Shown here: positions 15,612 through 62,438 of the stretch, piece after piece
Numbering within the stretch: the stretch's first letter is position 1
Layout: the number at the start of each line of letters is the position of its first letter
Translations under genes and position numbers: made by a program
Notes under the pieces: model-generated
The model's input: the letters and a program-made list of their open reading frames with translations, nothing else
Told to the model about the DNA's origin: nothing
Databases searched by the model: none
Source of the DNA: Verrucomicrobiota bacterium
Lineage (GTDB): Bacteria > Verrucomicrobiota > Verrucomicrobiia > Opitutales > Puniceicoccaceae
Direction: 5' to 3'
Assembly (NCBI GenBank): GCA_038744685.1
Contig: JBCDMB010000001.1
Coordinates: 62,001-126,000, forward strand
Length of the DNA: 64,000 bases

Positions 15612-15613
15612 GA

Positions 15614-29122: not shown

Positions 29123-29136
29123 ACACAAGACCTATT

Positions 29137-29931
29137 ATGATGAAGCAGTTCGCGATGGGTTCATTGATTTGTGCGATTACAGTGACCCTTGTTGCCGAAG
29201 AGGGCTTCCACGCGTTTCAAAACTATGGCTATAACGAGAATCCGTTGATCCCAGGGTCGACTTGGAAAATTCATGACAACGCGCGTCCGACGCCACCACG
29301 AGTCTCGCCAAGTCCTTATGTGAAGCAGGAAGGGAATCGGGCACCGTCCGACGCAGAGATTCTTTTTGATGGAACGTCCCTCGACAGATTTTGGACGAAT
29401 GAATGGTCGGTGAAGGAGGGTCACATCGTTGCCGGGACGGGAAGCTTAGTCTCATCGAAATCTTATGGCGATTTTCAGATGCACCTCGAGTTTCGCAGTC
29501 CCGATCCCGCCGTTGTGGATCGTCCCGGAAAGATGGGGAATAGTGGAATCTACATCATGGGGCGTTACGAGCTACAGATATTTGATTCCTATTCCTGTAA
29601 AAACTATGCGGATGGCTCCTGTGGAGCGATATATGGGCAGACTCCTCCATTGGTAAATGCATCCCGTCCGCCTGGAGAGTGGCAGACCTTCGATATCTAC
29701 TTTAACGCCCCGGTATTTGAGGGCGACGAGTTGGTCTCGCCTGCACGGATTACGGTCTTACACAATGGCGTCTTTGTCCATGTGAATACTGAGATCATCG
29801 CGCCGACTGGGCATAACAAACCGAAGGCGTATACTCCGCATGAACCCCGTAGACCATTTTTCCTCCAAGGGAGTAAGTGTCCGGTAGAGTTTCGTAACAT
29901 TTGGATTAGGGATCTTGGGAAAAAGGAGTGA
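29137..29931 (+). CDS. DUF1080 (3-keto-disaccharide hydrolase/lyase family) secreted protein
   Basis: Concanavalin-like beta-sandwich protein of 264 residues with a signal peptide (MKQFAMGSLICAITVTLVA). Family features are LFDGTSLDRFW, the GDFQMHLEFR segment, NSGIYIMGRYELQIFDS and the C-terminal [16 protein letters not shown] at 29137 or 29140 is preferred over a TTG at 29107, which would lengthen the protein ahead of the signal peptide. Family members act on 3-keto-glycosides made by Gfo/Idh/MocA oxidoreductases, as hydrolase or lyase. It follows such a gene by 14 bp. A paralogue at 50758 carries the same domain but is frameshifted, so this is the intact copy in the window. Confidence 0.9.
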   Translation: MMKQFAMGSLICAITVTLVAEEGFHAFQNYGYNENPLIPGSTWKIHDNARPTPPRVSPSPYVKQEGNRAPSDAEILFDGTSLDRFWTNEWSVKEGHIVAGTGSLVSSKSYGDFQMHLEFRSPDPAVVDRPGKMGNSGIYIMGRYELQIFDSYSCKNYADGSCGAIYGQTPPLVNASRPPGEWQTFDIYFNAPVFEGDELVSPARITVLHNGVFVHVNTEIIAPTGHNKPKAYTPHEPRRPFFLQGSKCPVEFRNIWIRDLGKKE

Positions 29932-32900: not shown

Positions 32901-34916
32901 GTATTCGATGTAGCCAGTGCCGAGACTGCCGTCCATCGTCGGGTCGGGGGAGGTATCAGTCGCGGTAAACTGCCAGCGACGAGTCGGGTCACCGTCAGCG
33001 TTTTCCGCCTCGAAGATCATGAGGCCTTCGTCGTCGACCCACTTGGTTGAAGTGGTCCCGAGTTCGGGAAGGGTTTGCGCCTTCCGAACAAGAATTGCCC
33101 AGTCTGACGTCGTGCTTGACGGTGCGTTGCCCAGCGAGCGGTTGCCACCACCGGAGATGCTTTGGACGGAGCCGGTCTGAAGGTTACCGCCGTTCCTCGG
33201 ATCGAACCAGCGAACGTCGAAAGTTCCAGAGATGCCCGTGAGATCAAGATTGGAGGTGCCGCCTTCTTCGAGATAGACGACGAAGAAATCAGTCCCGTCG
33301 GTGAGGCAGTGAGCAGTCGTGTTATCGATGAGCGAGTCGTCGTTGCTCATATTCCAGAACGGTATGTTCTGGGCGTAGAAAAAGCCGTTGATCGCGATGT
33401 CGGCATCTTCAAGGACGGCGCCAAGCTCGAGCCGATAATCCTGCATCGAAAGGTCGCGACCGCCAACGTAATACTCTACTCCGGCGCCACCGGCCATAAT
33501 GTTGCCCCAGAGAGCGTAGATGCGAGTGCCGTCTTCAGAGGCGCGAATTCCGAGATTGCCGGGACCCTGCTCGTCGTTAGCGCAGACCCAGGGTCGACCG
33601 GCGTTTGCCGATTTATCGACCCATTCCTTTGTTTCGATAAAGACGTTTTCGCTGGTCGCCGAGAGTTCAATCTGTAGGGAAACACCGGTCATTTCGGAGT
33701 CGCCGAGGTACTGGGTGTAGCGGTTGGTTTTGGCCGCTGCGGATGGTGCTGTGTGGAAGACACGGTTACTTTGCCAAGGGTCGTTGTCCTCAAAATATTG
33801 GAGCGAGCCTTCAATGACAGCTTCTCCACCCATGTTGATCTCTTCAGAGATGTTCCAGTTCAGCGCGAGGTGGTGACCGAAACGGGCAATCATTTCACGG
33901 TAGTAGAGCCGACGCTCGGGGCCGAGGGTATTTCCGCCGCTATCGTGGATTTTGCCGTTTTCGTTTTCGAAGAGTTTGAAGTGGAGATGCAGCCCTTTCT
34001 GTTCGGCGTGGTCGAAGATGATTTCCCATTGGTCCAGTTTTGAAGTGTCAAAGCGGGTGAGAGTCGAAGTGTCGGTGTAGGGAAAAGTCCGTCGGCCGTC
34101 GCCGTAGAGATTGTAAAGGAAGGTAGAGATGGAGTTGGCACCTGTTGAGGCAACGTAGTTGATCGCGCCGAGGAGTTCTGTCCCCTTTCCATTCTGCCAG
34201 GTTTGACCATCTCCACTGTAGTCCTCCTCGTGATCTTCCCAAGTCTTTATAAAACCCGCAGGCGGTCGTTCGTTGCCGAGACCGTCCTGATCGATAGGGA
34301 AGCCGTCGGTAGGCGTGTTGTCGAAGTCGACGTATTCGAGAGGGTTTTCCGGAGAGTCGGGACCAAACTTCAGGAAGTAGGTGCCACTGCCTTCGAACTG
34401 AAGGTGGTGTTTGTCGACGTAACGCAAGCGGCCTTTCGAACGCAGGTCGGGTGCCTGCGTTGGATTGATAGCCGAGATTTCGAGGCTTCCGTTGAGGCCA
34501 TCGTAGGGAGCGAGTGCTGTCCCAGGATTGGGGGAAGTGCTCGTTGCAACGTCACTTCCCTGGCGGAATGAGACCGTATAGTTCCAGGTTCCGGGATGAT
34601 TTGGCCGTAGATAAGCATGCCATTTATTCCCCGAGGTTGCACTGGAGTTAGCAGCGTCCCCGTCTGCGGCAAAAAAACCAGGAACGACATAGGATGTCCC
34701 AGACTCGGGATGACTGAAGGTGACATCAAACCGCAAATCGGTGAAAGGGTTGGTTGTGGCCTGCTCACTTGTCTGAGGACCGATCAGTTCAAGCGTAATC
34801 TTGTGCCAGACTATCGGATCCCCCTGTATATTGATTGTCTGAGAGTGAACTTGTTTTAGAGACAGCAAGCAGGTGAAAAAGAGAGCCAGCCGAAGTAGAG
34901 GGGATAAGAACTTCAT
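29949..34916 (-). CDS. Giant secreted multidomain glycosidase-like protein (DUF5060, TIM barrel, PKD, tandem repeats)
   Basis: Protein of 1655 residues with a signal peptide (about 1-25). In order: DUF5060 beta-sandwich (about 30-150), a DUF4038/GH5-like TIM barrel (about 180-530) with a likely acid/base Glu in NWNISEEINMGG, a collagen-binding-2-type domain with DVRWFDPRNGG, a CBM-like domain starting at LMIFEAENADGD, a second beta-rich domain around 860-980, a PKD domain (about 986-1075), two tandem repeats of about 220 residues, and a C-terminal segment with DDDKDRLLNIFEFAFGGNP, a calcium-binding type linker usual in Verrucomicrobia. It converges on the DUF1080 gene with a 17-bp gap. It is probably a cell-surface or released glycan-degrading enzyme; substrate not predictable. 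Confidence 0.8.
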   Translation of the reverse strand: MKFLSPLLRLALFFTCLLSLKQVHSQTINIQGDPIVWHKITLELIGPQTSEQATTNPFTDLRFDVTFSHPESGTSYVVPGFFAADGDAANSSATSGNKWHAYLRPNHPGTWNYTVSFRQGSDVATSTSPNPGTALAPYDGLNGSLEISAINPTQAPDLRSKGRLRYVDKHHLQFEGSGTYFLKFGPDSPENPLEYVDFDNTPTDGFPIDQDGLGNERPPAGFIKTWEDHEEDYSGDGQTWQNGKGTELLGAINYVASTGANSISTFLYNLYGDGRRTFPYTDTSTLTRFDTSKLDQWEIIFDHAEQKGLHLHFKLFENENGKIHDSGGNTLGPERRLYYREMIARFGHHLALNWNISEEINMGGEAVIEGSLQYFEDNDPWQSNRVFHTAPSAAAKTNRYTQYLGDSEMTGVSLQIELSATSENVFIETKEWVDKSANAGRPWVCANDEQGPGNLGIRASEDGTRIYALWGNIMAGGAGVEYYVGGRDLSMQDYRLELGAVLEDADIAINGFFYAQNIPFWNMSNDDSLIDNTTAHCLTDGTDFFVVYLEEGGTSNLDLTGISGTFDVRWFDPRNGGNLQTGSVQSISGGGNRSLGNAPSSTTSDWAILVRKAQTLPELGTTSTKWVDDEGLMIFEAENADGDPTRRWQFTATDTSPDPTMDGSLGTGYIEYTGPFNGGITKEDNQVDDINIYNFEIRKPGNYTFRWRTKQYSSVERPDAGNDSYVKFETGTPLLNDERDGNGQFAVTKFTKAFVQSQQNWSYNAAFEVQGGPARFVNNPKIFYEAGAHQIQIAGRSSGHAIDRITVYHDDVPYNQSTFENTPETTETTIIYNAVTDFTIQPAVDGRTIYNANSASDFLAIDASDEDKRGKFARAALIFNGAPGVYDVDITTITEEDGESVYRLLVNGSVVRTFQNPQVDNTGDLQPFVHRWTGIPLQPGNTIAVESATDSNGLIPEGDGFAFARGRWRQLELSSSDGVVPPTPAIEVNVGRDASYLTPISSVTLSSEVTSANPVSTYQWTQVSGPNDAVLSGETTATLNLSSLIVGAYVFRLTATDSQSNTDSDEITLYLRPDVDITGRFIEFTTPLTSGGLNGQVNWNAEAGWTVDPDSNGSTETSASGEIAVLNRPITLNEGETFSYVVDFEFTGNFTTPSNFVYAFLTGLKATSDATSLNTASDEPDANLQIFSSSAAYRLLSNFSGIPGISNLTGEPNPGDQLRIRYDITLGSSAGSTTYNVQLQNMTDDTDSGTGTVTGIMTDVFDALTGSGAYLFFQSLNFAANGSGLNGVRVNMIAYSAEIPDLSSQTVIEYTAPFADGELNGQESWNAESDWVVTNAGSGTVATTTNTNIAVLDLPIILRVGDTFSYTINFEFSGNYSSPAGFAYAFLTGLKATATPENTSNNAGTDEPDVNIQLFGGNTNYRLLNNFSVINGTSTLSNAPNEGEDLRLHYELTLGADAATTTYDVRLQNLTDGTDTGTGTVTGISANVYEALLGNGAYLFYQTINPGANSSGLTGVIVDTVSLQASPLLGFARFEIDFQLIEGELGDDDKDRLLNIFEFAFGGNPKIPGDFGIPPRIVFPTPGDPSEIEFQFRRRIDDGNGLTYNVQTTTDLNANWTPYTGPVQVYPENAEFELVTISLPTETDSLFVTIDLLRE
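30345..31680 (-). repeat. Two tandem protein-coding repeats of about 220 codons
   Basis: Within the giant protein, residues about 1079-1303 and 1304-1523 are copies of each other. Both have an IEYTAPF/IEFTTPL opening, LNGQ followed by WNAE, YAFLTGLKAT, DEPD, YRLLxNFS, a YDITLG/YELTLG segment and DxGTGTVTGI. DNA of the two copies is diverged, so the duplication is old. They are probably jelly-roll carbohydrate-binding modules. Confidence 0.8.
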
Positions 34917-38857: not shown

Positions 38858-40099
38858 ATGGATCGGAGGGATTTTAACAAGCACGGCCCAGCGGGGGTCC
38901 TTTCCATGGTACTTTGGCCAAAACCGTTTGCGGCAAAACCCGAAAATTTGATGAATAAAGCAGGAAACATCCAATCGATTGAAGCCTTCCCGATGGAGTA
39001 TCGGACGAAGGGTTATTTTAAGTTCTTCACGACGCCGTTGGGAGCCTCGGGCCGTCCGGCAGTCATGATAAAAATGACCACGGACACTGGTCTGGTGGGC
39101 TGGGGCCAGTCTGTTCCGATCTCAACGTGGAGCTACGAGACACTCGAAACCTCGGTCATTGCGCTACGGAATTACTACGTTCCGTCGCTGATTGGACATC
39201 CCGTCGAAGACATCAGTGGTGCACACAGAATCATGGATAAGGCGATTCGTCCCGGCCTGACGACCGGGATGCCGATCACTCGCGCGGGTATTGATTTCGC
39301 GCTGTTTGACATCATCGGTAAGTCTAGGGACCAATCCGTAGTCGAAATCCTCGGTGGCAAAGCTGGTGGTGCTCTCGATTTGAGTTGGACGGTGAACGTT
39401 CGTTCGCTCGATGATGTGGAGAAGTCGGTCGATGAAGGGATGCGGCTAGGGTACAAAGACTTTAACGTGAAAGTCGCGCCTGATCCGGAATACGATGTTC
39501 AAGTTGTTAAACGGGTGCGTGCTGCTGCGCCGGATGCCTTCCTGTGGTGCGATGCTAACACTGGATACGATTTGGATTCCGCGCTGACAGCAGCACCGCA
39601 GTTTGCAGACTTGGGAGTGCAGGTTTTCGAATCACCGATGCCTCCGAGTCGGTTCCGGGATTATCAAACCCTCGCGAAACAGGGTGCGATTGATATCTAC
39701 ATGGACGAGGGTGTGATTAGCCCCGATGTGTTGGAAGAGTTTATTCATCTCAGAATGCTAAACGGTTTAGCAATGAAGCCGTCTCGATGTGGCGGGCTGA
39801 CATCAAATAGTCGGATGATCGATCTTTGTTTAGAGAATGACTTGAAATGGGTCGGTAGCGGGCTTTGCGATCCAGACATATCGCTTGCCGCAAGCCTCGC
39901 ACTATACAGATCGTTTTCCCTTCCAACGGCTGCGGTGTTAAACGGCCCTCAGTTTTTGTCTGAGACTGTTTTGAAGCCAGCCTTTGAAGTCGTGGATGGT
40001 GCGATCGCACTGCCAGCGGGTCCCGGACTAGGTGTTGAAGTCGACGAGAATCGTCTGCAGGAGCTGTCACTGCGGACGGTGAAGGATTGGAAGCTTTAA
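38858..40099 (+). CDS. Enolase superfamily (mandelate racemase/muconate lactonizing) enzyme
   Basis: Protein of 413 residues with a short N-terminal extension (MDRRDFNKHG, a weak Tat-like motif), a capping domain (about 37-160) and a (beta/alpha)7-beta barrel. Metal ligands appear as Asp232 (CDANTG), Glu258 (FESPM) and Glu284 (MDEGV). On the second strand FNVKV keeps one lysine (Lys205), whereas the usual KxK has Asn203 at the first place; Lys307 in AMKPSR is the opposite lysine. Family members abstract a proton next to a carboxylate, as in sugar-acid dehydratases, racemases or cycloisomerases. With agarase-like genes nearby, a role on 3,6-anhydro-L-galactonate is possible but unproven. The next gene is an AraC regulator. 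Confidence 0.85.
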   Translation: MDRRDFNKHGPAGVLSMVLWPKPFAAKPENLMNKAGNIQSIEAFPMEYRTKGYFKFFTTPLGASGRPAVMIKMTTDTGLVGWGQSVPISTWSYETLETSVIALRNYYVPSLIGHPVEDISGAHRIMDKAIRPGLTTGMPITRAGIDFALFDIIGKSRDQSVVEILGGKAGGALDLSWTVNVRSLDDVEKSVDEGMRLGYKDFNVKVAPDPEYDVQVVKRVRAAAPDAFLWCDANTGYDLDSALTAAPQFADLGVQVFESPMPPSRFRDYQTLAKQGAIDIYMDEGVISPDVLEEFIHLRMLNGLAMKPSRCGGLTSNSRMIDLCLENDLKWVGSGLCDPDISLAASLALYRSFSLPTAAVLNGPQFLSETVLKPAFEVVDGAIALPAGPGLGVEVDENRLQELSLRTVKDWKL

Positions 40100-49085: not shown

Positions 49086-50381
49086 CTATAGCCCTCGAGT
49101 CCAGTCGCGACTCTCGCGTGCGTAATACTTGCTGTCCTGCATCCTGAAATTGTTTCTTGTAAAGGTCTCTGAGTCTGGATCCCAGTTCACGGTTGTCCCT
49201 TCTTCAAGTGCTATGTTACCTAGGTGGAGCATGTTTGCCAGATGGTGCCCTGCCTCAACTCCATAGGTGAGTTTCGAGTCCGGATCCTTGATCTTATCCA
49301 AAAAGTTTGGCCATTCTAGTTTTGGACGTGGCCAGTATTCAGGGTGCTCGCCGAGTGTCTTGTTGCGAAGGAGATTCCTGTCGCTCGCTTCCAATTTTCC
49401 GTTCCAGTCAGTGCATTGAACCCAACCTTCGGTACCTTCAAAGCGAAGTTTAATGTCGCCATTTGCGACGTTGATTGTTGCCCCGTTGGAATACTTGAAA
49501 TCCAGATCATAACCGTTGGCGGCGGTCACGTACCTATCTCTTGGAATCGTTTCCGCAGTTCCTGATATTTCCACTGGCCCGCTTTCGTCCATGCCGATAC
49601 CTACCTGCGCAGAATCACACAGGTGAGATCCCCAGTCGGCAAGGCTTCCCCCACTATAATTATAGTGCTGGCGCCAACGTTGAGGGTGACGGACACTTTG
49701 GGTAAAATCGGCTGCCGGTGCTGGTCCTAGCCACAGATTCCAATCGAGATCTTCGGGAATCGGCTCAGGAGCTTCCTGCTTCCAATGGATCGGCTTGCGG
49801 GGAAGTCCGCAATGAACGTATGTCACCTCACCAATTGCACCGGTCCGAGCCAGACCGGTTAAAAGCCAATACTTGATGAGACTGCGATCCTCAATTCCCC
49901 ATTGGAAGACCTTGTCGGATCTGTTGACGGCTTCGACTAGATCCTGCCCTTCGGTAATCGTCAGGCTCGGCTTTTCGCAGAAAACGTGCTTTCCTGCCTC
50001 AAGAGCCATCAGCGACATTGGGACATGCCAGTGATCCGGCGTGGAAATGACAACCGCATCGATGTCATCACGGGCCAGGATTTCCCGAAAATCTTGGTAA
50101 ACGTCGCAGTCTTTGTCGCCGTTTTGTTTGTCTACAATCTCCTTTGCATTTGGGAGCTTGCTCCTATCGCAGTCACAGACGGCGACGACTCTAGAAACAG
50201 GCACGGATTGAAACCCCCTAAGATTTCGACCGCTTCCCTGAAGACCCATCCCGATAAAGCCCAGGGTAATTTGGTTGGAAGGAGAGGATTGACCGAGCAG
50301 ACGGGAGGGTAGAACCTGCGGCGCTGCCAGTGCGGCTGCGGTTACAACGGAGGTGCGGGAGATAAAGTGACGACGATTCAT
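49086..50381 (-). CDS. Tat-exported Gfo/Idh/MocA family oxidoreductase
   Basis: Oxidoreductase of 431 residues from ATG at 50381; a longer frame to 50483 would add 34 residues before the Tat motif. N-terminal NRRHFISRTSVVTAAALAAP is a twin-arginine signal. Seen: [29 protein letters not shown], a Gly/Trp-rich substrate region (GSLADWGSHLCDSAQVG) and VNWDPDSETF at the C-terminus. It is closest in pattern to the protein at 27821-29122 (shared [18 protein letters not shown]). It is divergent from the DUF1080 gene at 50758, so the two probably share a control region of about 376 bp. Likely a glycoside 3-oxidase-type dehydrogenase; substrate unknown. Confidence 0.9.
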   Translation of the reverse strand: MNRRHFISRTSVVTAAALAAPQVLPSRLLGQSSPSNQITLGFIGMGLQGSGRNLRGFQSVPVSRVVAVCDCDRSKLPNAKEIVDKQNGDKDCDVYQDFREILARDDIDAVVISTPDHWHVPMSLMALEAGKHVFCEKPSLTITEGQDLVEAVNRSDKVFQWGIEDRSLIKYWLLTGLARTGAIGEVTYVHCGLPRKPIHWKQEAPEPIPEDLDWNLWLGPAPAADFTQSVRHPQRWRQHYNYSGGSLADWGSHLCDSAQVGIGMDESGPVEISGTAETIPRDRYVTAANGYDLDFKYSNGATINVANGDIKLRFEGTEGWVQCTDWNGKLEASDRNLLRNKTLGEHPEYWPRPKLEWPNFLDKIKDPDSKLTYGVEAGHHLANMLHLGNIALEEGTTVNWDPDSETFTRNNFRMQDSKYYARESRDWTRGL

Positions 50382-50757
50382 GATTCTCGAGGGAGGGAAA
50401 TTTTTTTGGGGGGTTGCAGATAAGAGGATCTTAGACGCCCTATTGTTCCCGTAAAGAAGGTTGATCAGGGCTTTAACTAGCAAGTGGCTTTAGTTCGCAT
50501 AGGAACCCGGAAGAATGACCCTGCTACCCAAGGGGTTCGGACAGTATGACCTCTGAATTTCAGATCACGTCAGATCTAGACGATATTCCGCGCAAACTGT
50601 CTTTAACCTTAGGCGGAGATAGTGAGGTTTGCTTTCGAAAGATCCGGAAGAATTAGAGGTATTGTTCAAATCGAAGTGCCCTTAATCTATCCACTGGGTA
50701 GATAATGCTACATCTAGCGATTTGAAACCCGTCTGATTGGATAAAAAGTAAGACTGT

Positions 50758-51532
50758 ATGAGATTCGCCCCCATTAGTCTTTTAGTCGCTTGTTTCGCTT
50801 CAGCCGAAGTTGGGTTTCACTCGGTCGTGGCCGACAGTAGTGAGTATGAAACGCCACTGATCCCGGGTTCTGAATACCGTGTCCACCAACATGACCGACC
50901 GCAGCCGCCGCGGGTTGTGCCGGGCGACTTTGTCTCAAGAACGGCCCCAGCGGATGCAGATATCCTGTTCGATGGTTCTTCAATGGATCAATTCGAACCG
51001 GGGGAATGGTTCATGAAAAACGGGGTCCTGATCTCAGGAAAAGGAGGCCTTTACAGCAAGAAAGCTTATGGCGACCTTCAAATGCACATCGAGTGGCGAA
51101 CGCCGAATCCGCCGCGTGGTGGGCCAAAAAGCTTGGGAAACAACGGAGTCAAACTCATGGGTCTTTACGAAATTCAGATCTTCGATTCCTACACTTGTAA
51201 AATCTACGCGGACGGATCGGCGGGCGCGGTCTACGCCCAGACTCCTCCTGCGGTGAATGCCTCCCGCAAACCCGGCGAGTGGCAGACCTTTGATATCTAT
51301 TTCACCGCGCCCGTTTTTGAAGGTGGTCAGTTAGTCAAGCCGGGTTACGTTACTGTCCTGCACAACGGCATTTTTATTTCACAACAACACGGAGATTCTC
51401 GGTAAAACCCAGTACAAAGGAGAGCAGCGCTACAAATCCCACGCCGCACGTTTGCCGTTTTACTTAGCTGGGCATGGGAACCCCGTTGAGTTCCGTAATA
51501 TTTGGGTCCGCGATTTAGATCCTGTCGAGTAG
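50758..51532 (+). pseudogene. DUF1080 (3-keto-disaccharide hydrolase/lyase family) gene with a frameshift
   Basis: The reading frame from ATG at 50758 gives a signal peptide and a DUF1080 domain ([38 protein letters not shown]) like the intact paralogue at 29137, then stops early at 51405 after [11 protein letters not shown]. One base shifted, from 51380, the frame continues [12 protein letters not shown] and ends [12 protein letters not shown] with TAG at 51530-51532, exactly where the paralogue ends. The extra base lies in the T-rich run TTTTTATTT at 51371-51379. It is either a real lesion, a programmed slip or a sequencing error. It is followed at once by a convergent AraC gene. Confidence 0.85.
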
Positions 51533-51539
51533 GGTAGCC

Positions 51540-52520
51540 TTATCTCTTACGATACTCTCTTGGTGTGCAGTTAAACTGCCTTTTAAAACAGTTGGCGAAA
51601 TACTGACTGGTATTGAAGCCGGTCGCGAAAGCGACGTCAGTGATCGGCATCTCGGGACTACACAAGAGAATGTCCCGCGCGTGGTTGAGTCGAATCCGAT
51701 TGAGCTGTTCCGCAGGGGTAGCGTTGAAAATTGTGCGGCAGGCAGAAGTGAGGTAGCTCTTCCCGACACGGCAGGCGTGCGCCATCTCGCCGACGCTCCA
51801 ACTTTCGGATGCTTTCTCAACACTGTATTCAAGGCCGTGAAAGAACTGCCGGATGGTTTGATCGAAGCCTTGCGGGTCCTTCTTGGGGTCAGTTAATCCC
51901 TCCGCGAGATAATCGGCTACCTCGACCAGAAGAGCGTTGATGTTGCTAGCGAGTTTCGCCACACAGAGCGCACTCTCGTCTTTGAGTTGCTGGCAGGTGC
52001 GCTCCATTAATGGCTTTAAGTGACCATCGGTATCGTGGAACTGGCAGTGCTGATTTTTGCGAAAAGCTCGAAGAAGTGCACGGCGTGCCTTCAGGTCCGG
52101 GCCGATCCAACTTGGGAATTCCCATACCCCATTTTGGCCTGCAGACTCCACATCGAGAATCACCCAAACAAGCTTGCAGGGACGGATTGTTGGATCACCA
52201 AGCTGATGCCGTTGCCAAGGGCGGGTCACCGTCATGTCTCCTGCGCGTAGGTTCCAATCTCCATTGTTTGTAATGAAACGGCATTCCCCGCTAAAGACAT
52301 AACAGATTTCGATACCCTCGTTACGGTGCATGGGAAGACCCCAGCTCTGAGGGCCAACAGCGTCCCAGAATCCGATAGTACGCAATCCGGGCAGCGCACC
52401 TTTCGGGATTCTTTTTCCTGGATATTGCCCTCGACTTTTTGCAACCAGATGGACTTCACCCTTCTCGACTGCTTCAGAAAGTGGAGCGCAGTTGTCAGCT
52501 TCTTTTGGAGGATAGCCCAC
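51540..52520 (-). CDS. AraC family transcriptional regulator
   Basis: Regulator of 326 residues with an N-terminal cupin-like domain (GIEICYVFSGECRFITNN, LRAGDMTVTRPWQRHQLG) and C-terminal AraC helices (VGEMAHACRVGKSYLTSAC and ITDVAFATGFNTSQYFANCF). The PWQRHQLG pattern is common in regulators of sugar-oxidation clusters of this phylum. It converges on the DUF1080 gene with a 7-bp gap and is divergent from the isomerase-like gene at 52587, with 66 bp between the starts, which makes that gene a likely target. Confidence 0.9.
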   Translation of the reverse strand: MGYPPKEADNCAPLSEAVEKGEVHLVAKSRGQYPGKRIPKGALPGLRTIGFWDAVGPQSWGLPMHRNEGIEICYVFSGECRFITNNGDWNLRAGDMTVTRPWQRHQLGDPTIRPCKLVWVILDVESAGQNGVWEFPSWIGPDLKARRALLRAFRKNQHCQFHDTDGHLKPLMERTCQQLKDESALCVAKLASNINALLVEVADYLAEGLTDPKKDPQGFDQTIRQFFHGLEYSVEKASESWSVGEMAHACRVGKSYLTSACRTIFNATPAEQLNRIRLNHARDILLCSPEMPITDVAFATGFNTSQYFANCFKRQFNCTPREYRKR

Positions 52521-52586
52521 AATGTGTAATATTCTGCATGGGCAAACCTAAACGTCAATCCCCGCGCGATATGTTATTCTAGTGTT

Positions 52587-53432
52587 ATGATAAAGATTGG
52601 CTGCTTTGCGCTGGTTAACCCGTTCAGTCCTCTGGACGCCCAATTCAAAACCATCCGTGAGATGGGTTTTGAGTATGCGGACCTGACTGATAGCCATGAC
52701 GGTGCTCTGCTGGGCAACGAGTTTGGCTTCACGGCTGCGGCGAGCTTGGATGCACATCCATCCCGTGTGCGAAAGATGGTAGAGGCGCATCAGCTTACAC
52801 TGACTGCCGTCTGTGCTCATGCGAACCTCCTTGATCCGACGGCACCGGATATTTACGGGACCACTCAGGTTATCAAGGCGATTCGTTTGGCTCGGGACCT
52901 TGGTGTGAAGCAAGTCATCACGACCGAAGGGGACCCCAAGACAGCGTTCGGCGAAAAGCTGAGTTACGAAGAGCGAATCTTCTCGATTGTTGAGAAACTA
53001 TATTGGCCGGTCCAATGGGCGGAAGAGTTGGGTATTCAGCTCCTGGTCGAGCCCCACGGAATCGTAACGGACAGTGTCGAGGCAACGACCGAACTTTTAG
53101 AACGTATCGGTAAGACGGATACAGTTGGTCTGAATTTGGATACTGGGAACCTTTGGCTCGGTGGCGGCAACAATTTTGAATACATCGAGCGTTTTGCAGA
53201 TCGGATCAAACACGTTCACTGGAAAGACCTTGAAGCGGAATGGGAACCCAAGCGTGGGGAACAGTTTGGCTGCGGAATGGGTCTGATTCCACTGGGCGAT
53301 GGCGTGATTGGTCTTCCCGAGATTGCGGCAGAACTGAAGAAGCGCGGTTTCCACGGACCGACTACCCTTGAGGTATTTGGTGAAGAAGCGGTCAAAGCCT
53401 CGGCAGAACGTTTGCAGAACTGGTTCTCGTAA
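52587..53432 (+). CDS. Sugar phosphate isomerase/epimerase-like TIM barrel (AP endonuclease 2 family)
   Basis: TIM-barrel protein of 281 residues without a signal peptide. The four metal ligands of the family are visible: Glu155 (LLVEPHG), Asp185 (LNLDTGN), His211 (KHVHWKD) and Glu262 (TLEVFG). Family members isomerise, epimerise or dehydrate ketoses and keto-sugars, using one metal ion. In the known Bacteroides 3-keto-glycoside cluster a protein of this family hydrates the 3-keto-glucal made by the DUF1080 lyase; here it lies between DUF1080 and two oxidoreductase genes, so the same role is plausible. It starts a plus-strand run with the oxidoreductase 34 bp downstream. Confidence 0.88.
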
Positions 53433-53466
53433 AAACAATATAGCTCTAAACCCAATAAGTTATCCC

Positions 53467-54795
53467 ATGAAGAAAGAACAAACCCGTAGAGAATTCCTAA
53501 AGAAATCGATCGGTGCCACTGCGCTTCTCGGTTTTCCGACAATCATCCCTTCGAGCGTGCTCGGCCAAAACGGAAATGTTGCTCCGAGCAACCGAGTCAC
53601 CATTAGTGTGGTTGGTTGCGGAAGCCGATCTCAAAGCTGTTGGGCTTACAAGAACAATCCGAAGTCGGAGATCGTTGCCGTTTGCGACCCGTTCATTGAT
53701 CGCCAAATAGAACGTGCAGCTGAATGGGATGTCGCTGACACCTACACCGATTTTCGTGAAGTGCTTGCTCGTGAAGACATTGATGGAGTGCATGTTGTGA
53801 CGCCAGACCACTGGCATGTTCCTATTTCGTTGGCTACTGCGAGGGCCGGAAAAGACGTCTATTGCGAGAAGCCGCTCGGGGTAAGTATCGAACAGGATCT
53901 CGTCGCACGTGAAATTGTGGAAAGGTATGGACGGGTTTTTCAGTACGGAACCCAGCAACGTTCCTCGGATGCGTGCCGTCTCGGCTTGGAGCTCGTTCTG
54001 AATGGTCACATAGGTGAGGTGCAGGAAGTGTTTGTTTGGGCTCCGGGAGGTGGATGGGGCGGTGACGGCACTGCTCAACCTGTGCCTGAAGGTTTCGATT
54101 ACGATCTCTGGCTTGGACCTGCGCCAGAGGCCCCCTACAGCCCCGATCGCGTTTCGTATAAAGGTGCGTGGTTTATCTATGATTATGCTATTGGCTTTAT
54201 CGCTGGATGGGGCGCTCACCCACTCGACATTCTGCAATGGTGGGCCGATCGAGAGGGACTAGGCATTCCCGTAGAATACAAGACGACCGGTAGGATTCCG
54301 ACGGATGGACTCTATGATACAGCGATCAACTGGCATATGGATGCGCGCTACCCAAACGGCACGAAGCTGACGTTTATCGATACTCGCTGGGCGCGAAAAG
54401 AGGATGCAAAGATTCCTGAAGGAATGAAGGGTGCCGTAGCGGAAATCGGTAATGGAACGTTCTTTGTGGGGAAGAACGGTTGGGTCAGTATTTCCCGTGG
54501 TGCTTTCAGAGCTTCAAGCGAGGAGTTACGCAGGAAAGCGAAGGACCCGGGACCGGTTCGCCTACCGATAAGTCGAAACCACATGGGCAATTTCGTTGAT
54601 TGTATCATTAGTCGCGAAGAACCGATTTCAGGTCTCGAGACCGGCATTAAATCTGACATCATTTCCCAGCTCGGAGACATTGGAATTCGAACAGGCGAAA
54701 CCGTTGGTTGGGATCCAGTGAAGGAAACGGTCGTCGGAAGCAGTGACGCAATGGCGATGATGCAGCGCAAGATGCGCCCACCTTGGACCTTATGA
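53467..54795 (+). CDS. Tat-exported Gfo/Idh/MocA family oxidoreductase
   Basis: Oxidoreductase of 442 residues from ATG at 53467, which puts the twin-arginine signal ([20 protein letters not shown]) at the N-terminus; a longer frame to 53368 overlaps the preceding gene. Seen: [37 protein letters not shown] and [14 protein letters not shown]. Its last four bases (ATGA) overlap the start of the DUF6807 gene, which indicates translational coupling. It is the second oxidoreductase of the 49-57 kb cluster, and the two may oxidise and re-reduce the sugar before and after cleavage. Confidence 0.92.
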
Positions 54796-55709
54796 CCAGT
54801 GTATGCACTGGGCTCTGGGCAGGTTTGCTTCTGCTAGGCATCCAGTTCCCCACTCCCTCTCCAGAGGTCGAGGTCCTTGAGAGGGAGAATTTTCTATCTC
54901 TGGTTGTAGACGGAGTGACGCTATGGACCTATCATTATGATCCAGAAGATGGAAAGCCATTCTTTCATCCTCTGGCGTCAGTTGACGGGACGATATTTAC
55001 TGCGATTCGACCAAAAGACCATCCTTGGCACAGGGGCCTGTGGTTCTCGTGGAAGTATATCGACCGTGTGAATTATTGGGAGGAAAACCGAAAGACGGGC
55101 CTTTCAGAAGGCCGCACCCGTCTCCTCTCGACTCACAATGAAGTCAACGAGGCTACGACAGTGCGTATCCTCCAGAGTCTTGAATATGCGCCGGGAGAAA
55201 TTGCGGAGAGAGTTGTAGAAGAAGTTCGAGAAATTGTGGTTTCGGCACCCGATTCGTCCGGGCTCTACACGATTGATTGGACGGCAAGATTCAAGGCTCT
55301 CGCTGAAGTTGCTCTGGACCGAACGCCCATTCCCGGAGAAGAAGGTGGAAAAGCCTATGGCGGATATGCGGGGCTATCGATCCGGATGAATCCCGGCATG
55401 AAACAAGGCGAATTCGTGAACGGATCAGGCCTCAAGGGGAGAGACGCCCACGGGCAGCCATCGAGTTGGGTTCAGTTCACTCTGCCCTCCGGCGCAGGGA
55501 TCTTGTTCATGGACCACCCTGACAATTTGAGTTCTCCATCCGCTTGGTATGTCTCCAGGATGCCGTACGTGAGTCCGGCCCTTTTGTTTGGTGAGCCTCT
55601 GTCTTTGCGGAAAGGTGAGACGTTTGTTCTGAAATATCGGATTGTAGTCAGTGCAACCGAGGTCAACGCTGGCGAGATGTTTGATGAGTGGGTATCGATT
55701 TCCCTCTAG
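54792..55709 (+). CDS. DUF6807 (PmoA-like) family protein
   Basis: Protein of 305 residues from ATG at 54792, overlapping the previous stop as ATGA. A short hydrophobic N-terminus ([15 protein letters not shown]) may be a signal peptide. The family signature [15 protein letters not shown] lies at about 80-95, together with [15 protein letters not shown] and [11 protein letters not shown]. The family is often labelled methane-oxygenase PmoA by old annotation, but no copper site is evident and the context is sugar oxidation. Such proteins are regular partners of Gfo/Idh/MocA genes in Verrucomicrobia and Planctomycetes. Function unknown; a galactose-mutarotase-like fold is possible. Confidence 0.85.
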
Positions 55710-55740
55710 AGTTTTTGTTGGTTCTTTCTGAAGGAGATTG

Positions 55741-56784
55741 ATGATGACGCTCGCACGATTCTGTATCGCCTTTGCCTTTTGCGGTTTGGCGTCTGGCGAC
55801 GAATACGAAGTCGGGAAAAAATTACCGGATGACGCAGTGATTAGCTATCCTGATTCCAATCCACTACGCGACGCTTTGGGACCGATTCCTGCGAACGCTG
55901 TTTTTGAGATGGAAGGCTACAGTTTGTGGGATCCTTCTTTGATAAAGGTTGGAGACACTTATCATCTCTTCTGTTCACGTTGGCCGAAAGCGGACGATCA
56001 CTCTTTCGATTCGGGGTGGAAGCGGAGTCACGTGATCCGTGCGACTTCTAAGAACTTGTTCGGTCCCTACGAGTTCGAAGAGGTTGTCTTACATCCATCC
56101 GATCATCCATGGGCTACGAATGGGATTCACAACCCGAAGATTATGAAGGTTGGCGATCGCTATTTGATTTACCATCTCGGTATTCCCGGTTGGTCGACCG
56201 GTTTCGCCTATGCCGATACGATAGAGGGGCCATGGGAGCCGGTTGCCGGGCCTGTCGTCAAAGCCAATAATCCAGCCTTGCTACTTCATGAAGACGGCTC
56301 CGCCTACATGGTGTCCAAACATAAGCCGAAGCCGACGCGCGATGGAAAATGGGATGCATGCATGGTCGCTCATGTGGCCGATGATGTGAATGGACCCTAC
56401 AAAAGGTTCGGCAATGGGAGGAATCTTTTACCGTATGATCTTGAATTGGAGGATCCGACCATTTGGTGGGCGAACGAGCAGTATAACGTGATTTGCACGG
56501 ATTGGGAGGGGAAGGTGACCGGAGTTCAGAAGCCTGTTGTCTATTACACCTCAAAGGATGGAATGAACTACGAGCTTTTCTCAAAGATTCCCGTCTGGAC
56601 CCAGGAAGAACCGATTCTTCTCGAGGATGGGACGGAGTTGAGCGCAAGTCGCATTGAGCGTCCGCAGGTGTACATCAATGATGAGGGTGAGTTCAGTGCA
56701 CTTTTGGTAGCCGTAGGTGTGGAGGAGCGGAGTCATGACTATATCGTCATTCGTCCGGTCGATAATTTCGTTCCTGAAAATTGA
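55741..56784 (+). CDS. Secreted GH43-superfamily-like five-bladed beta-propeller protein
   Basis: Protein of about 347 residues. The start is ATG at 55741 or 55744, after AAGGAG at 55731; a TTG at 55738 is less likely. Signal peptide about 1-20. Propeller repeats are visible as LWDPSLIKVGDTYHLFCS, IHNPKIMKVGDRYLIYH and LEDPTIWWANEQYNVI, with acidic residues where GH43/GH32 enzymes carry their catalytic acids (Asp in WDPS, Glu/Asp in EDPT). It should act outside the cytoplasm on terminal sugars, but the family number is not certain. It lies 31 bp after the DUF6807 gene on the same strand and is followed by a repeat-rich non-coding region. Confidence 0.78.
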   Translation: MMTLARFCIAFAFCGLASGDEYEVGKKLPDDAVISYPDSNPLRDALGPIPANAVFEMEGYSLWDPSLIKVGDTYHLFCSRWPKADDHSFDSGWKRSHVIRATSKNLFGPYEFEEVVLHPSDHPWATNGIHNPKIMKVGDRYLIYHLGIPGWSTGFAYADTIEGPWEPVAGPVVKANNPALLLHEDGSAYMVSKHKPKPTRDGKWDACMVAHVADDVNGPYKRFGNGRNLLPYDLELEDPTIWWANEQYNVICTDWEGKVTGVQKPVVYYTSKDGMNYELFSKIPVWTQEEPILLEDGTELSASRIERPQVYINDEGEFSALLVAVGVEERSHDYIVIRPVDNFVPEN

Positions 56785-57195: not shown

Positions 57196-58554
57196 ATGAA
57201 ACGAAGAGAATTTATCAATGCTTCAGCGACAGCAGCGGCCGGAACCTTTCTACTCCCTCGTTTTTCGATCGGTCAGCCTGGTCGATCGGCAAACTCGAAA
57301 GTCAATGTCGGCTGGATCGGAGTGGGTGGTATTGGACAATACGGTCTTCGACGCAGCCTGAACGAGAACATTGTCGCCGTTTGCGATGTGGATTGGCGGG
57401 CCAACCCGAGTGGCTTTGAAAAAAGGGCTGCTCTCAAGCACGCGCAGATGGTTCCCAACGCAAAGCGGTTCAACGATTTTCGCAGAATGCTGGATCAGAT
57501 GGGAGATGAGATCGATGCGGTTGCTATTTCGACTCCGGACCATACGCACTTTGCGATGGCTATGGACGCAATGCAGCGCGGGAAGCATGTCTTTGTCCAG
57601 AAACCGCTTGCGCACAGTGTCGATCAAGTGAGGACTCTTCAGGATGCGGCCAAAGAGTACCAAGTTAAGACCGTGATGGGTAATCAAGGGCACTGTTTCG
57701 AGGGCGCGCACCGGATTGTTGAGTGGGTCAAGAAGGGTATCGTTGGAGAGGTCGAGGAAGTGCACTGCTGGACAGATCGGCCTCGTTTGCCTTGGTTCGC
57801 CTTCAGACCACTGCCTGTCGAGACCGGGCCAGTGCCCGAGGATGTCGATTGGGACCTTTGGCAGGGCCCGGTGCCGGAAACCGAATTCAGTGATGATTAC
57901 ATGCCCTTACGGTGGCGGGCTTTTTGGAAGTACGGTTGCGGAGCGCTTGGAGATATCGGTTGTCACACCTTGGATGCTCCATTCTGGGCACTGGACCTCG
58001 GCTATCCGGATAAAGTTGAAATCGCAGAAATGGATCGTTGGGAAAACACCGATTATACACCGCGAGGTGCCCATGTGATTTATCATTTCCCTTCCAAAGG
58101 TGATCGTAAGGCGGTAAGGGTCCATTGGTATGAGGGCAAGTTTCGTCCAGACAAGTTGGAGGGGATGGACGAACTTCCCAAAAATGGGATGTATATGAAA
58201 GGCAGTAAAGAAACCATTTACCACGAGAATATACGTCCGGAATCTCCTCGTCTCTGGCCTTCTGAGCGGATGAGGGAGTATCGTGACGTGCTCAAGGAAA
58301 AGACAATTCCCCGCTCTCATACGGGCGACCCGCATACAGACCTGTGGTCGGCAATTCGTGGTGAAATTGATGAGTGCGGATCCAATTTTGATTATGCTGC
58401 TCCTTTGACTGAGACGGTGTTGCTGGGGAGCATGGCGATTCGTGCAAACGAGACGATTACCTGGGATTCCGAAACGATGGAATGCTCCAGCCCACTGGCT
58501 CAGCAATGGATTAAGGAGCCTGTCCGGGCAGGATGGGAGTACAGCCTCGAATGA
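57196..58554 (+). CDS. Tat-exported Gfo/Idh/MocA family oxidoreductase
   Basis: Oxidoreductase of 452 residues. The N-terminal [20 protein letters not shown] is a twin-arginine signal. Seen: [31 protein letters not shown] (Gln in place of Glu before the catalytic Lys), [11 protein letters not shown] and [15 protein letters not shown]. It is most like the protein at 9018, which shares the RSANSK-type segment after the signal, QKP and the closing EPVRAGW/QPVRRGW. The start codon lies 3 bp after the MITE-like element, with no clear ribosome site between, so the element supplies the leader. Its stop overlaps the SGNH gene start (ATGA). Confidence 0.91.
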
Positions 58555-60083
58555 GGCCCAGGAAGATTAAGGCTCTCATCAGTGTAGCTCTTTTGGTTTT
58601 TATTTGTACCGGGTCAGTCCGTGCGGAGCTCTGGTTGCCGAGTATATTTGGCGACCGCATGGTCCTGCAGCAGGGGCAGGTGAATCCGGTTTGGGGGAAA
58701 GCGAACCCGGGCGAGCTGATTACTGTCTTAATCGACGGACAGACTCTTGAGGTTGTTGCCGATGATCGTGGTGATTGGCGTGTCCAACTAGACCCAATGA
58801 GTGCCAGCTTCGACTCGCTGACTCTGACCATTCGGGCGTCAGAAGAGAGTGTTCGTTTCGAAGACGTCTTGATTGGTGAGGTGTGGTTCTGTTCAGGGCA
58901 GTCGAATATGGGCTGGAATGTGGCGTCGTCAAAGGACGCGGATCTGGAAATGCTTACTGCGAATTATCCCTATATCCGTTTATTTCAGGTTCCCAGAAAG
59001 GGCGCCGCGGAACCGCAGATTGATTTCGAAGCCAAGTGGGTCGCTTGCTCGGAGGAGACGGTGGGCTCTTTTTCCGCGGTCGGGTATTTTTTCGGTCGAA
59101 CTCTGTTTCAGGTGCTCGATGTTCCTGTTGGTCTGGTCGATAATGCTTGGGGAGGCTCGCCAATCGAATCCTGGATTCCTCGTGATGCCCTTGATTCATC
59201 GGGCGAGTATTCGGAAATGCTGGAAGATTGGGACAGGCGTTACGCAGAGTTCTCGGATGAAGCTTTTGCTCGAGAGATTGCGGAGTTCAGTGAATGGGTG
59301 GCTTCGGGGAAACCGCCCCCGCGCCGTTGGCGTCCAACAGACATTCGAACGGGTCGGCACCGGCCCGCCAATATTTGGAATGGAATGGTGCAACCGACGG
59401 TTGGGTATGGTTTGCGTGGGGTGATTTGGTATCAAGGGGAGAGTAACCTTCGAGATCCTGAGCAGTATCAATCGTTATTTCCCCTGTTCATTAAGAGCTT
59501 GCGCGAGCGATGGGGGCAGGGTGACTTTCCGTTCTACTGGGCGCAGCTCGCCGACTTTACAGCGGAGGTTGAGCAGCCTGGCAAGAGTAACTGGGCTGAA
59601 CTTCGGGAAGCGCAGTCGATGGCTCGGTCACTACCCGGAACAGGGGAGGTCATTACCTTTGATACAGGTGAGGGGCGCGACATCCATCCCAGAGACAAAC
59701 AAACGGTCTCGGCGCGACTGGTCCGCCATGCGTTGAGGAATGAATACGGAATCGAGATCCATGAAGAAAGTCCACGCTTTGAATCGATGCGAATCGATGA
59801 CGGCGCGGCAATCATCACATTTAAGAATATGAAGTATGGTCTCTATGCTTTTGATACAAAAGAGGTGCAGGGTTTCTCGATCGCTGGAGCGGACGGTAGA
59901 TTTGTCTGGGCCAACGGCGAGATTTTAAATTGGAAAACAGTCCGGGTTTGGTCTGATGAGGTGGATGTTCCCGTTGCTGTGCGATACGGTTGGGCGAATA
60001 ACCCTGCTATCAATCTTTATGATCGGGTAGGGCTGCCAGTCGCACCGTTTCGAACCGATGGTGAAGATCCGCCTTTAGATTGA
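58551..60083 (+). CDS. Secreted sialate O-acetylesterase-like SGNH hydrolase
   Basis: Carbohydrate esterase-type protein of 510 residues from ATG at 58551, overlapping the previous stop; a start at 58533 would add six residues inside the upstream gene. Signal peptide about 1-25. Features: [22 protein letters not shown], catalytic FCSGQSNM with Ser118, [11 protein letters not shown] and [10 protein letters not shown], all typical of the SASA/DUF303 group. These enzymes remove acetyl groups from sugars; the true substrate in algal glycan degradation is open. It is translationally coupled to the oxidoreductase and overlaps the opposing GH86 gene by 9 bp at the 3' ends. Confidence 0.9.
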
Positions 60084-62438
60084 ACCGCTCACCAAGACCA
60101 CCTTTGCAGAGGTTGCGACTGCGCCTGGCTCTTCGAATGAGACCTCAATGGTGTTGCTTGTCTTGAGCAGTGCGGGATCGTAATCGAATTCGAAATAATC
60201 GAAGAAACGTTGGGCGCCTTTGCTGTAGCTCAAGTCGAGGGATTGGCTCTCCACTCCGTTTAGCGAAACAGTCACGCCTTTTTCAAAACCATTGGGGCGA
60301 TGCACCCCAATACGAACCTTGCTGCTGAGAAGGTTTTTACTAAGTTCACTCTCGTCGATGGCGACTTCAAAAGTAACCGGCTGGTCCGCTCGAATAGCCG
60401 TTTCGGGTGCGTACCATGAGGTTTCGTTGTGAATAGTGTCCAGCCTAGGAGCATCCGAAAGCGTCAGTTCGACAATCTGGGTGACATCGACGCCTGCGTC
60501 TATCGAGGATAGGTCTTCGACTGGCTCGTCGATGAAGAGCATTTCTCCCTTTTCAAAGACGGGCTTGATTCGTCTGGCGGATTCGATCTGGATCCCCTCG
60601 GGGAGAGTGGTTTCGAGATTGATTCGCGCTCTTTGGTCGAACCGGTTGTTGAGGACGACGCGAAGAACGTTTCCGTCGAGAACAGCGAAGCTATAGATTT
60701 TGCGATGGTCTTCGGTTGAGGTTACCCGCTTGCCTTTGAAGTCTTCCCACAGGTCGATAAAATAGGCGTTCTTCGTCTTGTAGTATTCGCCGTCTTCATC
60801 CCGGTGGATGAATGATTCCATCGCATGGGGATCCCAGTGCATGTAAGTGAGGAGGAAAGGTACCGTGAGGTCGAAGTCCTGGGGTCGGTCGAGGAAGTTG
60901 ACGAGCATGTTGTTGACGTTCTTCACGTGAGTCCAAAAACCGATGTCGCCGTTGGGAGCGTTCAGCGTCCCGTACTCGGTTACCAGTATAGGCACCTCGT
61001 AATCGATCTTGGTCATGTGGGCCTTGAGCATGTCGAGGGTGCATTCGAGGTTTCCCTGTGCGTATCCGTCGCGGCCGTTCCATTGATCTCCGTAGGAGTT
61101 GTTGGAGGCGATTTCGTAAAAGTGGTGGGAGTAAAAATCCATCTTACCCTTGGTCAGGTCCATGAAGCGCTGCTGGTTCTTCCAGACCCGAAAATCGTTT
61201 CGGTGTGGCTGGATCCATGCGGACGCGGGACCTCCGACCTGAACATCCGGAAACTCGGCGCGGATGCCGTCGGCCATCGCGATGTGAAAGTCAGCCAGCT
61301 TGCCCCAACTGTCGTAGCCCTCCTGCCCGTGCCACATCCATTCGGACTGGATATCACTCTCGTTTTTTACCTCCCACCAGTCGGCAGTGCGGCCGCTGTC
61401 GCGCACCTGAGCTTTGAGGTACTCGACGGCCAGCTCGGTCGCAGCATCATAGTTTTCAGGTGTTCCACGGATGTTGGGAATTCCTTCGACGTCTGGTTCC
61501 ATGAAGGAGGGCCAGTTATCAAAGCACATGGCGAAGGTCATTTCGGGATCGACCCCCTTGAAGCGCCAGAACATGCCGACGTTGCGATCAAAGAAGGACA
61601 AGTCGGCATAACCTGGGCGGTCCGGGTCTTCGGTCAGATGGTCGAGCCGATCTGCTGCGCCGTAGCGATCCTCAAGAAGGGGTCCCAGCTTCTCGATCTG
61701 ACGGCCGGGGAGAAACCCTTTTCCAACGAAGTAGGGCTCTTTCCCGGACTGGTCCATGTTTGGACTGGCGTAGTAGCGGAAGTAACGGTCCCTCTGCAGT
61801 TCGGAGATACCATGAATAGCACGGTAGGCGGTTACATCCACGTGAACGTTTACATCGATGATTGGCTTGTCCAACCCGGGTGCGATGTAGAGACTTGGGT
61901 TGAAATCGACCGCGATACCCTCCCAGTTCACAAGCAAAACTTCATCAACCGTTCCCTCGCCGATGAATTCCATCCAGTAAGGCTCGCCCTCCTTGATACT
62001 CGCCAGAGCGGCTTCGATGACGAATCCACGGTCCGATTGCTGACTGATCTTTGCCTCGCGAAAGCCGTCGGTTTTCGAGGTGAAACTCACCTGCTTTATG
62101 CCGAGCAGGCCTTCGCCTTTCACTTGAAAGGAGCGGAAGGATTGTCGGTGGCGGGCTACTTCCAGAGGAACGGGAATATCCGCCTTTCCGTCGATCTTTA
62201 GAGGCCCTGTGAAGAACGCGACAGACATGAGTCGTTCGTATTGCGCGTTTACCTGAATATCGGTGGTGCTTGGATACTTCTCCTTCACCACCTCCATGAG
62301 GTGTTGGTGGTTCTCATACGCTTCTTTTCCGGCGCTTCCAAGTTGTTCAATAACCTCCGGGCTAAGGGCTCCGTTCGCTGAGAGGAAAAATACAGTGCTC
62401 GCGAGATTTGCGATAAGTAGCTTGGGGATCGGGATCAT
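60075..62438 (-). CDS. GH86 family beta-agarase/beta-porphyranase-like enzyme
   Basis: Secreted glycosidase of 787 residues with a signal peptide (about 1-23). An N-terminal beta-sandwich (about 75-185) leads to a TIM barrel with WWEVKNESD (Glu360, likely acid/base) and ILVTEYGTL (Glu488, likely nucleophile), then C-terminal beta-domains from about 570. The barrel motifs, FYSHHFYE and the overall length fit GH86, whose members are endo-acting on agarose or porphyran. With GH50, GH2 and several sulfatases in the window, a sulfated red-algal galactan is the likely target. The family call is from motifs only. It ends 9 bp inside the SGNH gene on the other strand; a sulfatase lies upstream on the same strand. 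Confidence 0.8.
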   Translation of the reverse strand: MIPIPKLLIANLASTVFFLSANGALSPEVIEQLGSAGKEAYENHQHLMEVVKEKYPSTTDIQVNAQYERLMSVAFFTGPLKIDGKADIPVPLEVARHRQSFRSFQVKGEGLLGIKQVSFTSKTDGFREAKISQQSDRGFVIEAALASIKEGEPYWMEFIGEGTVDEVLLVNWEGIAVDFNPSLYIAPGLDKPIIDVNVHVDVTAYRAIHGISELQRDRYFRYYASPNMDQSGKEPYFVGKGFLPGRQIEKLGPLLEDRYGAADRLDHLTEDPDRPGYADLSFFDRNVGMFWRFKGVDPEMTFAMCFDNWPSFMEPDVEGIPNIRGTPENYDAATELAVEYLKAQVRDSGRTADWWEVKNESDIQSEWMWHGQEGYDSWGKLADFHIAMADGIRAEFPDVQVGGPASAWIQPHRNDFRVWKNQQRFMDLTKGKMDFYSHHFYEIASNNSYGDQWNGRDGYAQGNLECTLDMLKAHMTKIDYEVPILVTEYGTLNAPNGDIGFWTHVKNVNNMLVNFLDRPQDFDLTVPFLLTYMHWDPHAMESFIHRDEDGEYYKTKNAYFIDLWEDFKGKRVTSTEDHRKIYSFAVLDGNVLRVVLNNRFDQRARINLETTLPEGIQIESARRIKPVFEKGEMLFIDEPVEDLSSIDAGVDVTQIVELTLSDAPRLDTIHNETSWYAPETAIRADQPVTFEVAIDESELSKNLLSSKVRIGVHRPNGFEKGVTVSLNGVESQSLDLSYSKGAQRFFDYFEFDYDPALLKTSNTIEVSFEEPGAVATSAKVVLVSGSI

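Follow-up and report, generated by a model that had tools for sequence, protein, structure and literature searches.

Several bacterial systems that process 3-keto sugars have been described. The 3-keto derivatives of trehalose and maltitol have been linked to ThuAB (PMC7404187), AtOGE and PuCGE cleave 3-keto-glycosides by beta-elimination (PMC10628242), and LgdB1 and LgdB2, whose annotation is sugar phosphate isomerase, carry out elimination and hydration (PMC7676230). BT2158, of the Bacteroides thetaiotaomicron BT2156-BT2160 set, has been called periplasmic (PMC11300592), and a periplasmic DUF1080 3'-ketolactose hydrolase has been proposed (PMC9007349). Here, the interval 49086-55709 of a 64,000-nucleotide stretch (the window, to which all coordinates refer) was analysed in the genome of a marine Verrucomicrobiota bacterium that degrades algal sugars, a relative of Opitutales (3.64 Mb, 98% complete). 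The initial annotation had described this interval as a single BT2156-BT2160-type unit with a DUF1080 lyase. By gene content and comparison with relatives, it appears instead to be two adjoining sugar-oxidation modules with separate histories, not one pathway: module A, an oxidoreductase with DUF1080, and module B, an oxidoreductase with a TIM (triosephosphate isomerase) barrel, an AraC regulator and DUF6807.

Gene content of the interval

The two Gfo/Idh/MocA oxidoreductases, DUF1080, the TIM barrel and the AraC regulator listed initially were all recovered as open reading frames (ORFs) with Pfam matches. The gene for DUF6807, the more interesting gene of the interval, had gone unnamed. The features are as follows:

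49086-50483, minus strand: Gfo/Idh/MocA oxidoreductase by Pfam, with twin-arginine translocation (Tat) motif RRHFI; module A.
50758-51405, plus strand: DUF1080 (PF06439, now named 3-keto-disaccharide hydrolase) by Pfam, with Sec-like signal and frame broken near the 3' end; module A.
51377-51532, plus strand: C-terminal remnant of DUF1080 in another reading frame (PF06439 positions 142-187).
51540-52520, minus strand: AraC-type regulator with cupin domain by Pfam, divergent from the TIM-barrel gene and 66 bp from it; module B.
52587-53432, plus strand: xylose-isomerase-like TIM barrel by Pfam, predicted cytoplasmic, with a conserved metal site; module B.
53467-54795, plus strand: Gfo/Idh/MocA oxidoreductase by Pfam, Tat-type (RREFLK), of the DUF6807-associated subfamily; module B.
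54783-55709, plus strand: DUF6807 (PF14100) by Pfam (E 8e-60), with Sec-like N-terminus and 13 bp overlap with the preceding gene; module B.

The ORF of the second oxidoreductase opens at 53368, and the ATG at 53467 is the probable true start. Organization of the interval as a single operon was ruled out by the strand layout and by gene arrangement in relatives.

Neighbourhoods of DUF6807 and of the TIM barrel in related genomes

In two genomes of the same order that contain a close TIM barrel (G030 and G032), its neighbours are an AraC regulator, an oxidoreductase of the 53467 type and DUF6807. The gene for ThuA is also present, fused to DUF6807 in G030 (530 aa) and separate in G032, while the 49086-type oxidoreductase and DUF1080 are absent from both loci. 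Over 23 further TIM-barrel loci of the phylum these partners are met again, variously arranged.

A sample of 80 DUF6807 loci was drawn from named genomes of Verrucomicrobiota, Planctomycetota, Bacteroidota, Acidobacteriota and others, and genes in the nearest 3 kb were compared with those in a similar amount of far DNA. An oxidoreductase was found near DUF6807 at 51 of the 80 loci (58 near versus 9 far genes; 0.139 versus 0.019 per kb; p 1e-11) and a TIM barrel at 25 (25 versus 2 genes; p 6e-7), the test treating loci as independent, which is true only in part. Genes for ThuA lie near DUF6807 in 13 loci (13 near versus 1 far) and are fused to it in 25; AraC genes are near in 16. Enrichment was thus 7-15-fold for oxidoreductases, TIM barrels and ThuA. 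DUF1080 was near at three loci and was not enriched (3 near versus 5 far), few cases being added by a DUF1080 profile with a larger sequence set, and sulfatases were not enriched either (15 near versus 12 far).

Module B, often with the ThuA-DUF6807 fusion, occurs repeatedly across Verrucomicrobiota, Planctomycetota, Bacteroidota and other phyla. Its distribution is patchy: two congeneric genomes lack the TIM barrel, while TIM barrels 78-85% identical to it occur in other families and classes, which suggests lateral spread of the cassette.

Two subfamilies of oxidoreductases

Since the sample drawn by DUF6807 is biased, a second count was anchored on the oxidoreductases, with partners sought within 1.5 kb. 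Among 28 oxidoreductases similar to 53467, 17 have DUF6807, a TIM barrel or ThuA nearby and none has DUF1080. Among 20 similar to 49086, a weak TIM-barrel match is nearby in one and DUF1080 in five. The contrast between the groups is significant both for DUF6807, TIM barrel or ThuA (p 7e-5) and for DUF1080 (p 0.009). In a tree of 92 oxidoreductases, 53467 falls in a clade of 58 (support 0.997), in which 56 of the 57 other members have DUF6807 and/or a TIM barrel beside them; 49086 clusters with the oxidoreductase at 27821 and with one DUF1080-paired gene. The two oxidoreductases of the interval are accordingly assigned to different subfamilies with different partners. The loci of relatives, the oxidoreductase counts and the tree together indicate that the interval brings together modules that differ in history.

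The same genome encodes one more oxidoreductase-DUF6807 pair, a more distant one, about 6 kb past the end of the window (L016:6443-8692; G000:C1:132443-134692).

Module A and its relation to the BT2156-BT2160 type

The reading frame of the DUF1080 gene stops at 51405, and the C-terminal part of the family runs on in another frame to about 51532, where the last 46 positions of the PF06439 profile were recovered. As the rest of the remnant is still conserved, the break would be recent or an assembly error; the data fit either an assembly error or a real lesion. An intact counterpart is present in the same window:

27821-29122, plus strand: oxidoreductase of an intact oxidoreductase-DUF1080 pair.
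29107-29931, plus strand: intact DUF1080 protein with 57% identity to the frameshifted one.

Both DUF1080 genes exceed the gathering score of PF06439 (26.8), with 85.1 bits for 50758-51405 and 123.4 bits for 29107-29931. The genome contains 16 PF06439 matches, two of which are the halves of the broken gene and 14 of which, including 29107-29931, lie elsewhere. The pair at 27821-29931 has an orthologous pair in another genome of the order (L085; 60% and 67%), and 49086-type and DUF1080 matches lie side by side in the same-order genomes G098, G030 (twice) and G093. Module A reads as a copy of the oxidoreductase-DUF1080 pair whose intact version lies at 27821-29931. Taken alone it is ordinary, and the intact pair is a better target than the interval for studying 3-keto-glycoside cleavage.

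Membership in the BT2156-BT2160 type was examined with equivalog models. Against NF058561 (BT_2158, cutoff 750), the two oxidoreductases of the interval score 134 and 131 bits, over the N-terminal half only; against NF058563 (BT_2159, cutoff 650), 49086 scores 22 bits and the ORF opening at 53368 has no match. NF058560 and NF058562, considered as candidate models for BT_2156 and BT_2157, were discarded, one being unrelated and the other nonexistent. The gene closest to BT2158 in this region lies outside the interval annotated initially:

57196-58554, plus strand: third oxidoreductase, 362 bits to NF058561 (the BT2158 model), below its cutoff.

It is overlapped by a sialate-esterase-like gene, and its tree neighbour, in the L068 locus of the same phylum, is paired with DUF1080.

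The interval could still belong to a single pathway of the BT2156-BT2160 type whose substrates are oligosaccharides derived from galactan, its DUF1080 coming from intact copies encoded elsewhere in the genome. Every family of such a pathway lies within 7 kb, the 14 other DUF1080 matches would provide the enzyme, relatives of GH50 and GH86 are encoded in the window, and in L068 module B is followed by a BT2158-like oxidoreductase and DUF1080. On the other side, the local DUF1080 is broken, in relatives DUF1080 is not a neighbour of such a TIM barrel, oxidoreductase or DUF6807, the BT_2158 and BT_2159 scores are far below cutoff, and a GH50-like gene was found near module B in only one of the loci examined. 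This explanation is considered improbable. What remains of the initial claim is the chemistry: the families fit known 3-keto-glycoside reactions, which are plausible here, while in relatives the place of DUF1080 is taken by DUF6807 and ThuA.

Predicted structure and conserved residues of DUF6807

The DUF6807 protein scores 203.1 bits against PF14100 (gathering score 27), and a sequence search of solved structures with it gave no match. The AlphaFold model, built with 82 sequences, has a pLDDT (predicted local distance difference test) of 94 and matches carbohydrate-active beta-supersandwich proteins with VIA Z of 14-17, namely the C-terminal domain (domain 5) of GH2 beta-galactosidase, PL26 lyase, aldose 1-epimerase (GalM), GH174 fucanase and hyaluronate lyase. 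DUF6807 is thus predicted, with high confidence, to be a galactose mutarotase-like beta-supersandwich. Residues D79, H80, H83, Y195, R201 and Y285 are invariant in the 82 sequences, E100 and E147 are nearly so, and these polar residues look like a putative catalytic set. A literature search found no paper on DUF6807 or PF14100, its results being swamped by unrelated matches, so that absence is not established.

Genes for MR/MLE enolases, among which aldonate dehydratases are numerous, lie near DUF6807 or are fused to it in three loci (L161, L141 and L146). The planctomycete protein L161:6678-8831 is such a fusion, and its enolase part is 58% identical to the enolase encoded at 38858-40099 in the window. 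The latter gene is flanked by an oxidoreductase gene and an AraC gene; its product could be a sugar-acid dehydratase or a 3,6-anhydro-galactonate cycloisomerase.

Conserved metal site of the TIM barrel

The predicted metal site of the TIM barrel, E155-x-H157, D185 and H209-x-H211, is invariant in 26 sequences, and E262 is nearly invariant. Four metal ligands and the His two residues after the strand-5 ligand are present, the roles of the residues being assigned by comparison. At the alignment position of E-x-H, AsbF, which we take to be 3-dehydroshikimate dehydratase, has E-T-H, IolE, presumably inosose dehydratase (the name of TIGR04379 agrees), has H-H-H, and Art22, named an isomerase, has E-N-Y. 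In AtOGE and PuCGE a metal ligand-x-catalytic His stands at the same place (PMC10628242). As the motif matches dehydratases and Mn-dependent beta-eliminases, unlike that of Art22, the [E/H]-x-H signature favours elimination or hydration over epimerisation.

The profile of the TIM barrel matches the solved 2-hydroxy-3-keto-glucal hydratase 8ro4 (E 2e-6), and its fold does so with VIA Z 24.2 and 18% identity in the fold alignment. By fold, 3-epimerases and isomerases are matched equally well (VIA Z 24-28), so the reaction is not chosen by fold alone.

This tie bears on an explanation of module B as ordinary monosaccharide catabolism with no 3-keto step, in which the oxidoreductase would oxidise C1 to an aldonolactone, DUF6807 would open or mutarotate the product, and the TIM barrel would isomerise or epimerise the sugar. 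The galactose-mutarotase-like fold of DUF6807, the closeness of the TIM-barrel fold to 3-epimerases, and the MR/MLE enolases at three DUF6807 loci and in the window all accord with it. The invariant dehydratase/eliminase signature, which the Art22 isomerase lacks, does not; a Tat-exported oxidoreductase and a ThuA-DUF6807 fusion would also be odd in such a route, ThuA being a partner in 3-keto-disaccharide formation. C1 oxidation is considered rather unlikely.

Cellular location and proposed working of module B

Export signals were sought by a simple motif and hydrophobicity check. Twin-arginine motifs are present in both oxidoreductases of the interval (RRHFI and RREFL), and Sec-like N-termini in DUF1080 and DUF6807; no signal was found by this check in the TIM barrel or the AraC regulator. 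Among relatives, the twin-arginine motif occurs in 45 of 55 oxidoreductases at TIM-barrel loci and a hydrophobic N-terminus in 37 of 41 DUF6807 proteins, whereas of 58 TIM-barrel ORFs one has a Tat motif and 11 pass the crude hydrophobicity limit. Because the signals are common in oxidoreductases and DUF6807 and less so in TIM barrels, oxidation and the action of DUF6807 probably take place outside the cytoplasm and that of the TIM barrel inside. The signals noted in the initial annotation were thus borne out, while extracytoplasmic location as such is not new, in view of periplasmic BT2158 and the periplasmic DUF1080 hydrolase proposed earlier.

The same split bears on the possibility that the TIM barrel is itself a cytoplasmic beta-eliminase of the AtOGE, PuCGE or LgdB1 type, DUF6807 merely converting anomers or handling the released sugar. 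The catalytic signature shared with AtOGE and PuCGE and the elimination and hydration by LgdB1 and LgdB2 (PMC7676230) speak for it. Since the TIM barrel has no export signal and the oxidoreductase is exported, cleavage would require prior import of the 3-keto-glycoside; moreover, most DUF6807 genes have no TIM barrel nearby (present at 25 of 80 loci). We regard it as quite improbable.

Module B, the DUF6807 set, probably handles oxidised sugars outside the cytoplasm, and 3-keto-sugar chemistry is plausible for it, in which case the cleaving enzyme would not be DUF1080. The Tat-exported oxidoreductase, with a bound nicotinamide cofactor, would act in the periplasm, oxidising a ring hydroxyl of a sugar or glycoside, most likely the one at C3. 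DUF6807, with ThuA where present, would cleave or rearrange the oxidised sugar, the role played by DUF1080 elsewhere; the product would be imported into the cytoplasm, and the TIM barrel would complete the breakdown by metal-assisted elimination or hydration. To this scheme of exported oxidation, DUF6807 processing and TIM-barrel finishing, conditional in all its reactions, in the C3 position, in the order of steps and in the substrate, we give an even chance. As Gfo/Idh/MocA oxidoreductases, ThuA and TIM barrels have precedents with 3-keto sugars, we infer that DUF6807 performs, or helps with, the step of the DUF1080 type. A stronger proposal is put forward tentatively: DUF6807, by itself or together with ThuA, would be a so far unrecognised family of extracytoplasmic enzymes that cleave or rearrange 3-keto sugars instead of DUF1080, and the core of an oxidoreductase-DUF6807-TIM cassette that is widespread.

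Several points weigh against the 3-keto scheme. We know of no activity for DUF6807; its mutarotase-like fold also fits an epimerase or binding role, the MR/MLE enolases beside or joined to it at three loci point to sugar-acid chemistry, and the TIM-barrel fold does not separate epimerases from the hydratase. No partner is in reach at 17 of the 80 DUF6807 loci, and that sample leans towards relatives of the window's DUF6807. ThuA is present neither in this copy of module B nor in the window, its matches in this genome being elsewhere.

For a family without known function, the steady partners and carbohydrate-type fold give a first testable role. If DUF6807 does act on 3-keto sugars, it would join DUF1080, TIM-barrel eliminases and GH4 as another type of enzyme that cleaves or processes such sugars, and many of the twin-arginine oxidoreductases abundant in Verrucomicrobiota and Planctomycetota would gain a suggested function.

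Surroundings of the interval and possible substrate

By gene content the window is assigned as agarolytic. The gene at 5812-8025 encodes a beta-agarase relative (E 7e-194 to 4bq2, which we take to be a GH50 beta-agarase entry), that at 60075-62438 a GH86-like protein (E 2e-36 to the beta-agarase 8h97), and several sulfatases are present. The agarase-like genes and sulfatases reported initially are therefore real. In relatives, module B is surrounded by GH97, GH95, sulfatases or nothing in particular; a single GH50-like gene in L092, at 28% identity, and a single species named after agar (Agaribacillus, L138) were too little to base an association with agarases on. Since module B of relatives is not tied to galactan, a galactan substrate is possible from position in this one genome.

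Directly downstream of module B lies a further gene:

55738-56784, plus strand: GH43-like secreted protein, 28 bp 3' of the DUF6807 gene.

It was not met beside module B in the loci of relatives. Within the galactan region, a planctomycete-type cytochrome/DUF1501/DUF1553 gene block occupies 11906-18613. The gene at 29949-34916 encodes a DUF5060 protein of 1655 residues that includes a PKD domain; in Agaribacillus aureus (L138), a relative of it with 38% identity is encoded near DUF6807, TIM-barrel and AraC genes. No match to plasmid DNA was found.

Comparison with known systems

Module B resembles BT2156-BT2160 of B. thetaiotaomicron in its exported Gfo/Idh/MocA oxidoreductase and TIM barrel, and here a DUF1080 gene lies next door. 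It differs in having DUF6807, and ThuA in relatives, in place of DUF1080, in its AraC regulator, and in oxidoreductases far below the BT_2158 and BT_2159 models. The partnership of oxidoreductase and ThuA in its relatives recalls thuAB of rhizobia and Agrobacterium; this copy has no ThuA, possesses DUF6807 and a TIM barrel in addition, and its oxidoreductase is exported.

With AtOGE, AtHYD (8ro4) and LgdB1/LgdB2 module B shares the TIM barrel, AtOGE having the same [E/H]-x-H metal/catalytic signature (PMC10628242) and 8ro4 being alike by profile and fold. The TIM barrel of module B, known here from sequence, is distant from them (18% identity to 8ro4). The predicted fold of DUF6807 is like those of GalM, GH174 fucanase, GH2 domain 5 and PL26, although it has no sequence similarity to solved structures. 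For module A, the LacABC-DUF1080 lactose route of C. crescentus, with periplasmic oxidation followed by a DUF1080 enzyme, is a plausible parallel, although its membrane-bound dehydrogenase is of another kind.

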